A stretch of DNA of 64,000 nt from Branchipolynoe longqiensis. Its lineage: Eukaryota > Annelida > Polychaeta > Phyllodocida > Polynoidae. Position 1 is the stretch's first letter, and each line of letters opens with the position of its first letter. The position numbers were made by a program, and so were the translations under genes. Location of the stretch: assembly GCA_030323885.1 (NCBI GenBank), contig JASIRB010001073.1, positions 39,961 to 103,960 on the forward strand, given 5' to 3'. The notes beneath the pieces were generated by a model. It was not told where the DNA came from and did no database searches. It was given only the letters and a program-made list of their open reading frames with translations. This document shows positions 361-52,800 of this stretch, piece by piece.

Positions 361-505
361 TGCTGCATCAAAATGATGGCATCGTACCCAAAAGCGGGGC
401 TCGAACCCACATTTCTGCCAATTCAGAGCGAGCGTCCATAACCATTATGCGACCTCGGCTCCCTGATGCCATCCTACCTATCCACACCTACTTGTCTGTG
501 TTGCA
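361..505 (-). mobile_element. Diverged tRNA-like repeat, related to the TRIM-t terminal repeat
   Basis: On the minus strand a region with ATAATGGTTATGGAC is followed by GGTTCGAGCCCC (B-box-like). The order of blocks (GGGAGCC, tRNA-like head, ATCATTTT) matches the TRIM-t LTRs at 19612, 33482 and 52244, but with many mismatches. It is either an old solo LTR or the tRNA-derived ancestor of that module. Confidence 0.55.
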
Positions 506-532
506 TTTCACTTAAGGAGGTGAGTGCAACTC

Positions 533-1916: not shown

Positions 1917-2990
1917 CCAGCTGTCACACTCGCCACTCCCATCTGTCACACTCGCCACTCCCATCTGTCACACTCGCCACTCCCATCTGTCACACTCGCC
2001 ACTCCCATCTGTCATACTCGCCACTCCCATCTGTCACACTCGCTGCTCCCATATGTCACACTCACCACTCCCATCTGTCACACTCGCCACTCCAATCTGC
2101 TACACTCCCCACTCCCAGCTGTCACAGTCACTGCTTCCAGCTGTCACAGTCACTTCTTCCAGCTGTCACATTCATCACTCTCAGCTGTCACTGCTTCCAG
2201 CTGTCACAGTCACTGCTTCCAGCTGTCACATTCATCACTCCCAGCTGTCACACTCGCCACTCCCAGCTGTCACACTCGCCACTCCCAGCCGTCACACTCG
2301 CCACTCTCAGCTGTCACAATTCCTGCTTCCAGCTGTCACATTCATCACTCTCAACTGTCACACTCGCCACTCCCAGCTGCCACACTCCCCACTCCCAGAT
2401 GTCACAATCATTGCTTCCAGCTGTCACATTCATTACTCTGCTGTCACACTCGCCACTCCCAGCTGTCATATTCGCCATTCCCAACTGTCACAGCCACTGT
2501 TTCCAGCTGTCCCATTCATAACTCTCAGCTGGCACATTCGCCAATCCCAGCTGTCACACCCGCCATTCCCAGCTGTCACACTCGCCATTCCCCTCTGTCA
2601 CACACACCGCTGTCAGCTGTCAATAAGGACACAACAGCTGTCACTCTCACCACCACCCGCAGTCACACTCAGAGCCGTCCACTGTCACTCACTCCACTCC
2701 CAGCTGTCACACTCATCAGTGCTCAATTTCAAACTCATCACTGCCCACTGTCATACACATCACCACCAGCTGTCACATTCATCACCAGCAATGCTCACAC
2801 TCAAAACCGTCAGCTGTCAAACTCCCAGCCGTCCACTGTCACTACTCACCACTCTCAGCTGTCACACTCATCATTTCCGGCTGTCACATTTATCAGCACC
2901 AGCTGTCAATATCCTCAACCCCAGCTGTCACGCTCATCACTACCAGCTGTCACACTCACACAACACAGTTGCCAGATGTCACCCCCACTG
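1917..2990. repeat. 22-bp minisatellite (CAGCTGTCACACTCGCCACTCC)
   Basis: Units of about 22 bp with core CTGTCACACTCGCCACTCCC are nearly identical up to about 2600 and then decay to scattered CAGCTGTCAC motifs. A 457-codon open frame on the plus strand across this array is a by-product of units lacking stops. No domain is present. Confidence 0.93.
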
Positions 2991-3036
2991 CAGGCTCACC
3001 TGCGGTCATAGTCCCATTCACTCCGAATTGCCGGCC

Positions 3037-3152
3037 GCCGTGTAACCCACGCCCCCTCCCGCCCAAGCACCCCATCCCCCTCCCGCCTCCGCGCCCCCTC
3101 GCCCCTCCCGCCCCAGCTCCCCCTCCCGCCCCCCTCCGCCCCTGACACTCTC
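3037..3152. repeat. C-rich CCCTCCCGCCC tract
   Basis: Short pyrimidine-rich run of CCCCTCCCGCC type, abutting the 22-bp array. Confidence 0.85.
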
Positions 3153-3263
3153 ACCCCTGTTATCACCAGCATCACGGCCTCCCGCAGCCTCGCTTTCAAA
3201 ATCCCAGCCATTCCACACACCCAGATCTGTTCGGTCCACAAAGGCAGGCGTTGACTGCCCATC

Positions 3264-19611: not shown

Positions 19612-19794
19612 TGTCGTCGGGGGTGATGAAAATGGGAAATATTGCGCCTAGAGCGGGACTCGAACCCATCTCTCGTTGCATTCCGGGCCAGTGGGCTAAC
19701 CATTACACCACCTATGCTCCCTGATGTCACCACACTACCCATGCCTACCTGTCTAGGCGATTCCTTGACTGACAGGTCAGTGCAGACTACTACA
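19612..19794 (-). mobile_element. TRIM-t solo LTR with 4-bp TSD
   Basis: A 183-bp unit running TGTCGTCGGGG...GACTACTACA, flanked by ATAC on both sides (19608-19611 and 19795-19798). It matches each terminal repeat of the elements at 33482 and 52244. On the minus strand it holds TGGTGTAATGG (A box) and GGTTCGAGTCC (B box, 19656-19666). A single LTR with TSD is what LTR-LTR recombination leaves behind. Confidence 0.85.
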
Positions 19795-33337: not shown

Positions 33338-34197
33338 AAAATGTTTGTTTTATTTAACGACACCTCTAGAGCCCATTGATGTTTATCATTGGCTATTGTC
33401 TGTCAAATATATGGTCATTCTGACATATTTCTTCGGGGGAAACCCATGGTCGCCACATAGGCTACACTTTCGGATAAGCAGTGTCATGGGGGTGATGAAA
33501 ATGGGAAATATTGCGCCTAGAGCGGGACTCGAACCCACATCTCTTTGCATTCCAGGGCAGTGTGTTAACCATTTCACCACCTAGGCTCCCTGATATCATC
33601 ACACTACCCACGCCTACCTGTCTATGTGGTTACTTGCCTGAGAGGTCAGTGCAGACTACTACACTCGTCCCTCTGGAATTGTAAGTCTTTTAATGCTTAC
33701 AATTACATACATACAGGCAATGCACTAACACATACACAGGGTAGGTTAAACAACTATACAGTGCGTAGCTTGTACAGGATCCTGCTCACGGCACCAGTGT
33801 CATGGGGGTGATGAAAATGTGAAATATTGTGCCTAGAGCGGGACTCGAACCCACATCTCTTTGCATTCCGGGCCATTGGGCTAACCATTACACCACCTAG
33901 GCTCCCTGATATCAACAAACTACCCATGCCTACCTGTCTATGTGGCTACTTGCCTGAGAGGTCAGTGCAGACTACTACAGCAGCAAGGGGGTCTTTTATA
34001 TATGCATTTTCTCACATAGAGGACAGCACATACCACAACCTTTGATGAACCAGTTGTAGACCACTGGTTCAGAACTGAACCAGTGGTCTACAACGGAAAA
34101 TAGCCCAAACTGCAAATGTGTCCACTGAGCACGATCGACAGGATGACCCACACCTTCACAGGTGAACAGTCTACCGCCTGAGCTACGTCCCGCTCCC
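33338..34197 (-). mobile_element. SINE-D (mollusc-type), split by TRIM-t
   Basis: With 33482-33979 removed, the minus strand reads from a tRNA-like head (GGGACGTAGCTCAGGCGGTA, 34197-34150) through TAGCCC, CACATAGGCTACAC-type and GGTCGCCAC-type blocks to TCGTTAAATAAAACAAACAT at 33338-33357. From memory, TTTATTTAACGACRCCTCTAGAGC-type ends are common in gastropod and other mollusc genomes. Confidence 0.75.
33482..33979 (-). mobile_element. TRIM-t, complete: LTR-core-LTR
   Basis: Terminal direct repeats 33482-33663 and 33798-33979 (182 bp each, about a dozen differences by eye) both run TGTCATGGGG...CTACTACA. The core is 134 bp. TSD is GCAG (33478-33481 and 33980-33983). In the minus-strand sense, one base after the 5' LTR comes TGGTGCCGTGAGCAGGATCC (33796-33777). 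Its first 11 bases equal the complement of a tRNA-His 3' end. A purine-rich CCAGAGGGACGAG precedes the 3' LTR. Each LTR has an A box (TGGTGTAATGG, 33895-33885) and a B box (GGTTCGAGTCC, 33851-33841) on the same strand. No ORF. Confidence 0.85.
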
Positions 34198-46272: not shown

Positions 46273-46409
46273 GGCATGGCCCATGTTCTCTTCCTTTAAT
46301 CTAAAACATTAAACACTTGGATTTATCTCGTCACAATATCTATCACACATCAGAAGATGAACTATACAAAATAAACCTATTATTAACATGCATCCTATTT
46401 CATTTCCAC

Positions 46410-46423
46410 TCTTTGTCGTCCAG
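46410..46423 (+). promoter_or_regulatory. Splice acceptor of the PKD exon
   Basis: CTCTTTGTCGTCCAG follows a pyrimidine-rich CCTATTTCATTTCCA stretch and sets the exon start at ATTGCTGTC. Confidence 0.75.
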
Positions 46424-47714
46424 ATTGCTGTCAAGCGGGAGTTGAATGACTTGACCTTGACCTTGGAGGAAAACCAGCCCAACGTAACCACTGCGGGGTC
46501 TTCCATCGGCTTCAGGTTCTCCATGGTAACGACAGACCGCCAGGACACCCACCTGGAGGTGAACTTCGGCGACGGTGATATCCAGAGGTACCTGATCACA
46601 GACGAGCACGGCAGGTACTTGGGGCTGCTCCAGGGTGCCTCGGATCAGGTGGCCCTGAGGGCTGACTACGGCACAGGATCCTGCGTCCTCCAGCTGGCCA
46701 TCGATCACACCTACGTCAGGCAGAGCGACGGCTATGCAGTGACAGCGGTCGCATGGAATGCGAACAGCAACATCACAGCGAGCCTCCAGCGGCCAGTTGT
46801 GGTTCAGATCCGGGTCGTGGTTGCGCGCGTCGCCGGAGTGCGGGACGCGCTGGTCGAAGTCGAGTGCACGTTCACCGTCGAGTTCAACGGGGTAACGCCG
46901 CTCGGTGTGGAGTACACCTGGTGGGTGATGTCACCCAGCGGGAAGTTCGAGACCGTTACGACGGCTCTGGTGAATGAGCTCCACTATGAGTTCCAGCAGC
47001 GGGGTGCATATGAAGTCCGGCTCACCGCAAGCAACATTGTCAACACCGATTCGCACAGCTTCATGGTGCAGGTCCACCAGCCAATCAGGGGCCTCGAAGT
47101 GCATCTGCTCTACGGGGGACGCTTCCTGATCGCCACGGGGGACCGGCTCAGCTTCCGGGCCAGCGTCTCTTCGGGCAGCAGTCTGCAGTTTGAGTGGGAC
47201 TTCAGTGATGAGGATGAGGACGAGAGCGTGACTGACGTCAGCGCGTTCGTTATGGACGATGAGTTGACGTCATCAGCGAATCACACGTTCAGTAAGAGCG
47301 GGAGATATTCAGTGCACGTTGTAGCTTTTAATGCTCATGACACAAAATCGGTGACACTCTCCATGATAATCGTCGCTCAAGACCCTATCGAGACACTCCG
47401 CGTGACGTCAGACGAACCGACATTGCTGAACACGTCGACCGTCGTCACGGCCATCGCCAAAGGCGGAAGTGACGTAAACCTCATTCTGAAGTATGACTCG
47501 ACGCGGATTGAGCGAAACAACACCCACAGTGCTAACTGGTCGGTGGTTTTGAAGCTCGGCGTGACGAAACTGAACGTCATCGCCTACAACGGCGTGTCCC
47601 GAAAGTCGCAGATGACACTTGTAGAAGTGCAGCAGGAAGTGGGCGAAGTGCGCGTCATCACCAAAGTCGACCTAGTTCTCGGGGAAAGTGCCACATTCAT
47701 CGCCTTACAAGAAA
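46424..47714 (+). CDS. Internal exon of a PKD-repeat (polycystin/REJ-like) protein
   Basis: A 1291-bp exon coding for ~430 residues. The acceptor is a pyrimidine-rich CTTTGTCGTCCAG ending at 46423; the donor is GAAA|GTAAGT at 47715. Entry phase 0, exit phase 1. The frame is open 46388-47812, but residues outside these sites look intronic. Tandem PKD-type beta-sandwich domains: 1 (residues ~1-130; VNFGDGD, then IDHTYVRQSDGYAVTAVAWN), 2 (~131-225; YTWWV, then YEFQQRGAYEVRLTASN), 3 (~226-330; FEWDFSDED, then NHTFSKSGRYSVHVVAFNAH), 4 (~331-412; less canonical), and the start of a fifth. Several N-glycosylation sequons (NVT, NIT, NHT, NTS, NNT, NWS) fit an extracellular segment. PKD repeats are adhesive ectodomains of polycystin-1-type and REJ proteins. 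No transmembrane, GAIN/GPS or PLAT part is in the window, and no neighbouring exon was recognised. It could be another PKD-domain surface protein or an isolated pseudogenic exon. GC-rich codon use contrasts with the AT-rich flanks. Confidence 0.85.
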
Positions 47715-47720
47715 GTAAGT
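47712..47720 (+). promoter_or_regulatory. Splice donor of the PKD exon
   Basis: AAAGTAAGT is a near-perfect donor. After it codon composition changes at once to AT-rich, and the frame meets a stop at 47810. Confidence 0.8.
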
Positions 47721-47950
47721 CAGCAGCTATAATTGAAAGACATGATTTCACACCCGCAGCAGTTCAAGTGGATGAGATAAGTGAATTTAAGCCGATCAAA
47801 GCCGAAGGCTGAAATCATTCTACTTACCCATCAGGGTTATTAGAATTCCTGCAGGTGTTTACAATTGTGTCTTCCATTCCGTATTGCACATGTATAGATA
47901 TATTTTTTTAATTTACTGTGGAACTAAATTCTAGTGGTTTCATATGGTAA
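47721..47950. other. Intron start, unassigned
   Basis: AT-rich sequence downstream of the donor. Nothing else recognised. Confidence 0.5.
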
Positions 47951-52194: not shown

Positions 52195-52800
52195 GTCACG
52201 GTGAGTGTGCGCTGTCACAATTCGGTACACGTCATGATATGACTGTCATGGGGGGGTGATGAAAATGGGAAATATTGTGCCTAGAGCGGGACTCGAACCC
52301 ACATCTCTTTGCATTCCGGGCCAGGGTGTGAACCATTACACCACCTAGGCTCCCTGATATCAACACACTACCCATGCCTACCTGTCTATGTGGTCACTTG
52401 CCTGAGAGGTCAGTGCAGACCACTCACTACACTCGCCCCCCTGGAATTGTAAGTCTTTTAATGCTTACAATTACATACATACAGGCAATGCACTAACACA
52501 TACATACACAGGGTAGGTTCAACAACCATACAGCGCGTAGCTTGTACAGGATCCTGGTCATGGAACCAGTGTCATCGGGGTGATGAAAATTGGAAATATT
52601 GCACCTAGAGTGGGACTCAAAGTCGAATCCACATCTCTTTGCATTCCGGGCCAGTGTGCTAACCATTACACCACCTAGGCTCCCTGATATCAACACACTA
52701 CCCACACCTGCCTGTCTATGTGGTCACTTGCCTGAGAGGTCAGTGCAGACCACTACATGACCTTAGATTTTGCCAGGACGTAAAGCTCCAACAACCAACA
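52195..52800 (+). mobile_element. SINE-A 3' part, split by TRIM-t
   Basis: 52195-52243 (AGTGTGCGCTGTCACAATTC, CATGATATGAC) and 52758-52800 (TGACCTTAGATTTTGCCAGG, CTCCAACAACCAAC) join into a continuous SINE-A end once the TRIM-t is removed. Confidence 0.92.
52244..52757 (-). mobile_element. TRIM-t, complete, with perfect 4-bp TSD
   Basis: Terminal direct repeats 52244-52431 and 52570-52757 (188 bp each), core 138 bp. The TSD is TGAC (52240-52243 and 52758-52761); because the target is a known SINE-A site, the empty site can be read directly. In the minus-strand sense the core begins C then TGGTTCCATGACCAGGATCC, and the purine-rich CCAGGGGGGCGAG precedes the 3' LTR. Consensus A and B boxes lie in each LTR (B box 52299-52289). 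No ORF. Confidence 0.88.

Follow-up and report, generated by a model that had tools for sequence, protein, structure and literature searches.

A Helenus-type miniature LTR retrotransposon with tRNA-like LTRs in Branchipolynoe longqiensis, and its candidate Gypsy partner

The window analysed here, a stretch of 64,000 nucleotides from the annelid Branchipolynoe longqiensis (contig JASIRB010001073.1), contains a short element at 33482..33979 whose two terminal repeats each carry a tRNA-like sequence. The locus raises three questions: whether the element is a miniature LTR retrotransposon (TRIM) or a pair of SINEs, which polymerase would transcribe it, and whose enzymes would move it. Judged by its sequence features, it is very probably a Helenus-type TRIM, that is, a non-autonomous LTR retrotransposon with a tRNA-like pol III promoter in its LTR.

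The anatomy was measured first-hand, and the description given in the first-pass annotation was confirmed. The element has terminal repeats of 182 bp running TG...CA, a 134-bp core and the target-site duplication (TSD) GCAG, which gives 182 + 134 + 182 = 498 bp, with the minus strand as the sense strand. The tRNA-complementary primer-binding site (PBS) begins one base inside the 5' LTR, and the purine-rich stretch was found at the 3' end of the core, before the other LTR. The claimed lack of an ORF was also upheld, as the longest stop-to-stop stretch in the six frames spans 80 codons. The two LTRs are 93.4% identical and differ at 12 of 182 positions. The coordinates are collected in Table 1, together with those of three further copies in the window. 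In the second full-length copy, the B-box of the 5' LTR has a 6-bp insertion, and only the 3' LTR reached the tRNA cut-off. The 4-bp TSD was perfect in all three window copies with measured ends.

Table 1. Coordinates of the 33482..33979 element, its parts and the related copies in the window
Feature	Position	Strand	Basis or remark
Complete TRIM, very probably Helenus-type, 498 bp	33482..33979	-	LTR/core/TSD measured; genome search
5' LTR, 182 bp, TG...CA	33798..33979	-	
3' LTR, 182 bp, TG...CA	33482..33663	-	
Non-coding internal region, 134 bp	33664..33797	-	without TTTT
PBS	33779..33796	-	17 of 18 nt complementary to host tRNA-His 3' end + CCA
Purine-rich tract CCAGAGGGACGAG	33664..33676	-	before 3' LTR
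TSD GCAG, left	33478..33481	.	
TSD GCAG, right	33980..33983	.	
tRNA-like sequence, 5' LTR	33830..33902	-	Rfam RF00005 41.8 bits; ARAGORN tRNA-Ser(gga)
tRNA-like sequence, 3' LTR	33514..33586	-	Rfam RF00005 45.5 bits; ARAGORN, without amino acid
A-box-like TGGTGTAATGG, 5' LTR	33885..33895	-	sequence
B-box-like GGTTCGAGTCC, 5' LTR	33841..33851	-	sequence
B-box-like GGTTCGAGTCC, 3' LTR	33525..33535	-	sequence
TTTT, 5' LTR	33814..33817	-	sole T4 run of 5' LTR + core; candidate weak pol III terminator
TTTT, 3' LTR	33498..33501	-	candidate end of full-length RNA
Second full-length copy, 90% identical	52244..52757	-	TSD TGAC
Solo LTR	19612..19794	-	TSD ATAC; without A-tail
Diverged partial LTR (72%)	393..528	-	B-box-like stretch visible; without tRNA call

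Two other stretches of the window were recorded. A short repeat-like stretch at 33340-33470 (GTTTTATTTAACGACACC...) adjoins the element and resembles a mollusc repeat. A 483-aa open frame containing a PKD domain lies at 46361-47809 (+); the protein search with this exon scored 8000 candidates and returned no homologue at E 0.001. Elsewhere in the assembly, egg lysin (PF01303) and haemocyanin (PF14830) gave no match, but neither did they in any control genome, which makes the result uninformative. Three muscle-myosin loci were translated, and two exons of one and one exon of another were compared with solved structures. The equivalent exon of both loci scored best with scallop and squid myosin chains and the remaining exon with a squid chain, vertebrate myosins following closely; the alignments were far from identity.

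The tRNA-like module was scored with two programs, Rfam (RF00005 cut-off, 29 bits) and ARAGORN. Both called it in each LTR of the element. RF00005 was the sole Rfam family at gathering score in the whole window. Details of the module needed correction. The annotation had placed A- and B-boxes in each LTR: B-box GGTTCGAGTCC is present in both, but the exact A-box TGGTGTAATGG occurs only in the 5' LTR, and the 3' LTR has TGGTGAAATGG, one base different. We take TGGTGTAATGG and GGTTCGAGTCC of the 5' LTR to fit the A-box and B-box consensuses, respectively. An acceptor-like stem does exist, but the proposed pairing of GAGCCTA with TAGGCGC at six of seven positions is two bases off register; in the Rfam register, GCCTAGG and TCTAGGC pair at 7/7 positions, including one G-U.

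With these signals, pol III would initiate shortly before the tRNA-like sequence of the 5' LTR, pass the weak TTTT there and the core, which has no T4 run, and terminate at the TTTT of the 3' LTR. The predicted RNA would be ~410 nt long with a terminal repeat of ~95 nt. The genome-wide search described below covered 40 loci of the family, in which TTTT was present in 101 of 103 LTRs vs 1 of 63 internal regions. The occurrence of a single TTTT per unit was rejected as a signal in its own right, since 821 of 2000 shuffles also have one.

The tRNA-like sequence may instead be a passenger with an idle promoter, in an element transcribed by pol II. In the first 30 loci, the A-box was exact in 73 and the B-box in 74 of 78 LTRs, but the LTR is conserved throughout, and the two stretches rank 57th (A-box) and 49th (B-box) of 172. 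The boxes are thus no more conserved than other good LTR stretches, and their conservation does not demonstrate selection on them, as the passenger reading would have it. Against this reading, AATAAA, ATTAAA, TATAAA and TATATA were absent from all 103 LTRs of the TRIM family, whereas AATAAA was found in every one of the 14 LTRs (13 loci) of the candidate Gypsy partner introduced below. The tRNA-like match also lies well over the Rfam cut-off. We consider an idle promoter unlikely.

Dispersal of functional tRNA genes by the element is a highly improbable reading. ARAGORN named tRNA-Ser(gga) for two of its three tRNA-like matches in the window, but the third lacks a full anticodon, and the copy in the 5' LTR of our element has non-standard pairs at 2/5 anticodon-stem positions and one in the D-stem.

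The TRIM was then sought across the 1.85-Gb assembly. In the whole-element search, the best 40 of 7074 candidates were scored, yielding 41 matches in 40 loci (two in one locus), with the window element among them; all 40 were examined. The core-only search scored the best 40 of 2122 candidates. The figures 7074 and 2122 count first-look candidates and are not copy numbers. The LTR–core–LTR structure seen in all 40 loci is partly a matter of construction, as a complete element served as the query and its top matches were selected. Features that do not depend on this selection were clear of it: TG...CA ends were present in 38 of the 40 best-matching loci, the core contained the PBS, and the 4-bp duplication was perfect in 24 loci, had one mismatch in 10 and was worse in 6. 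Chance would give ~0.2 perfect duplications with equal base use. The 16 loci without a perfect duplication are a point against the LTR-type reading. L020, L023 and L029 have ATAG on the left vs ATAT on the right, a one-base mismatch at the same position of the duplication. The purine tract CCAGGGGGACGAG was found in 54 of 63 internal regions.

Two tandem tRNA-derived SINE copies mimicking LTRs, which the first-pass annotation had named as the reading that would overturn its own, might account for the tRNA-like sequence inside the LTR, as in SINEs, and for the tandem arrays at 10 of the 40 loci, but this is almost certainly wrong, as the ends, the perfect duplications, the PBS and purine tract of the core, and a solo LTR flanked by a 4-bp duplication and lacking an A-tail all speak against it. 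Membership in the SINEs was rejected on the duplications, the TG...CA ends and the PBS of the window copies and the 40 best-matching loci. The family inserts as an LTR-type element, and the window anatomy, the duplications and the tRNA calls give good support to the claim of a miniature LTR retrotransposon whose LTRs contain a tRNA-like module.

The arrays have 3 to 9 LTRs each, and their outer duplications were perfect in 5/10. Five of the eight internal units of array L008 are identical, indicating local duplication. Among the first 30 loci, units within the arrays L003, L013, L024 and L030 were less alike mutually than to some unit elsewhere, part of the difference being the PBS insertion described below; this mixture indicates exchange or the insertion of concatemers. 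Of the first 30 loci, 22 have two LTRs; in these, the median LTR–LTR difference was 1.1% within a copy vs 3.3% between copies, and one LTR pair was identical. The low divergence within copies and the identical pair point to recent activity. The window element, with its 12 differences in 182 positions, is among the older copies.

The PBS is the complement of the tRNA-His end plus CCA. An 18-nt copied length is expected if a modified tRNA base halts copying. The 18-mer, with up to three mismatches allowed, had two matches in the window vs 0.07 expected. The tRNA-His 3'-end pattern occurred at 43 places in the genome, with 0 matches for the control; eight of these loci were run through ARAGORN, which called tRNA-His(GTG) in four, a Helenus LTR (as tRNA-Ser) in one and no tRNA in three. 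Host tRNA-His would prime reverse transcription at the PBS, as the sequence match supports. The PBS itself is dimorphic. The exact sequence TGGTGCCGTGACCAGGAT was present in 15 of 63 internal regions, a variant with an extra T (TGGTTGCC) in 34 and other variants in 14; the TGGTGCC form, which copies tRNA-His, and TGGTTGCC occur together within the single arrays L007 and L008. The extra-T variant counts against tRNA-His priming, because a PBS renewed in every round should lose the extra T.

Three observations were made near tRNA-His sequences. A tRNA-His gene with an encoded CCA (L041/L056; 4886-4960 in L056) lies between inverted short repeats. By eye, the sequence next to this gene in L056 resembles a SINE head. 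At ~4500-4930 of L055 (minus), a SINE-like head appears to be fused to ~37 nt from tRNA-His and to Helenus core and LTR sequence that has diverged. An interpretation of L044/L055 as a diverged, long-PBS TRIM was rejected because the sequence looks like a fusion, and the locus was left out of the evidence.

The first-pass annotation knew of no described animal family of this kind. This did not hold, since Helenus, a group of TRIMs with a tRNA-like LTR, was published in 2024 from fungi, a plant and six animal phyla (Kojima 2024, PMC10886601). According to the passages of that paper used here, Helenus (TRIMp3) elements are non-coding, have two LTRs and measure 311-1263 bp; their LTRs contain the A and B boxes of the tRNA-like sequence, and their core is bounded by a PBS for a tRNA 3' end and by a purine tract. 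In animals, they have 4-bp duplications and a PBS in common with Gypsy elements, on which they are inferred to depend; their primers include tRNA-His in bivalves and vertebrates. Solo LTRs are reported, as are tandem arrays for LTR-11_DR, and pol III transcription is put forward there as an expectation, not as a demonstrated fact. Our literature search had no other paper naming Helenus among its best matches. The window element agrees with this description in its 498-bp non-coding body with two LTRs, the A and B boxes of its tRNA-like LTR, its tRNA PBS and purine tract, and its 4-bp duplications, and the family agrees in having a solo LTR and tandem arrays. We therefore file it as a further Helenus member, a placement made by features. 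A recombinant with a Gypsy partner, described below, was seen here only and sets the family apart from the account in PMC10886601, as far as the passages cited go.

Other miniature elements were also compared. Cassandra, a plant TRIM with 5S rRNA in its LTR (PMC7215508, PMC10853983), resembles the family in its small-RNA promoter and in tandem arrays sharing LTRs, as those sources describe them in part, but it differs in its 5S rRNA derivation and its plant host. Membership in Cassandra was rejected; the window gave no 5S rRNA-derived LTR, RF00005 being its sole gathering-score match. The biv-TRIM elements of bivalves have repeats of 202-218 bp, a core of 77-80 bp and no unambiguous PBS in the parts of PMC6934838 cited here; they are also short TRIMs with solo repeats and tandem forms, but those parts describe no tRNA-like LTR promoter. 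Ajax, as outlined in PMC10886601, is another TRIM from animals whose promoter is of the pol III type, but it is 5S-derived, has 5-bp duplications and belongs to nemerteans.

A candidate for supplying the enzymes was indicated by one of the eight loci examined for tRNA-His (L042, enlarged as L054; C1:101288000-101294500; sense minus, 2158-3227). Here a Helenus 5' LTR is followed by the tRNA-His PBS and then by a different internal region, which has a purine tract at its end, and by a second, dissimilar LTR (348 bp), without a matching outer duplication. On its sequence, the locus is a recombinant, seen once. The 348-bp LTR and the internal sequence next to it are abundant, with 5053 first-look candidates, of which the best 40 were scored. 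One copy, L057, contains two of these partner LTRs and a PBS that matches tRNA-His over 25 nt; its core has no frame of at least 150 aa, and the copy has no matching duplication.

In three longer loci, L070, L071 and L072, the 3' part of the partner family was common to all. L071 and L072 also align over the stretch that encodes a Gypsy-type RNase H in L072. A Gypsy-type integrase adjoins the aligned stretch in L071, and L072 is without integrase. In L070, sequence far upstream encodes, on the same strand, a Gypsy-type reverse transcriptase and RNase H; it did not align with L071 or L072. Insertions interrupt L072 (LINE-like) and L071 (another Gypsy-type). A long open Gypsy-type polyprotein frame is nested in the partner locus at L071 4433-8413 (-). 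As the sequence of L070–L072 stops short of the 5' LTR and PBS, L057 is what connects the coding copies with the PBS, and it does so indirectly.

When the TRIM LTR and core were compared with the partner LTR and L057 (one sequence each), just two matches stood out: 15 bp at the LTR start (E 0.007) and 18 bp at the PBS (E 0.004). The sequence TGTAGTAGTCTG opens 12 of 103 Helenus LTRs exactly, and TGTAGTGGTCTG opens 81. We regard this Gypsy-type element, with its common LTR tip and tRNA-His PBS, as a candidate partner of the TRIM. Its Gypsy-type proteins would act in trans, making the cDNA and inserting it with the 4-bp duplication; the duplication is observed, and the partner is a candidate. 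TATAAA was found in neither partner nor Helenus LTRs, and ARAGORN detected no tRNA in 12 partner loci. AATAAA in all partner LTRs, which have no detected tRNA, vs none in the TRIM LTRs suggests that the latter have traded their pol II signals for pol III ones. A division of labour is conceivable, though we hold it doubtful given the indirect link between the partner's coding copies and the PBS: the TRIM and its Gypsy partner would share only the parts read by the enzymes (LTR tip, PBS and purine tract), and the TRIM would have given up its pol II start and its AATAAA end in favour of a tRNA-type promoter and a leaky TTTT.

These results document a Helenus-type family that is repeated and has recently been active in an animal genome of 1.85 Gb. 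Judging from the three calls in the window, tRNA annotation of such a genome would include tRNA-like LTRs. What this analysis adds is one recombinant locus and a concrete candidate for the Gypsy partner, which has the LTR tip and the tRNA-His site in common with the TRIM; in the account of PMC10886601, as far as cited here, the animal Helenus–Gypsy link is otherwise a similarity of the PBS. If the division of labour is true, the R region of the TRIM would be set by pol III, and each LTR could also release a tRNA-like RNA of ~95 nt.
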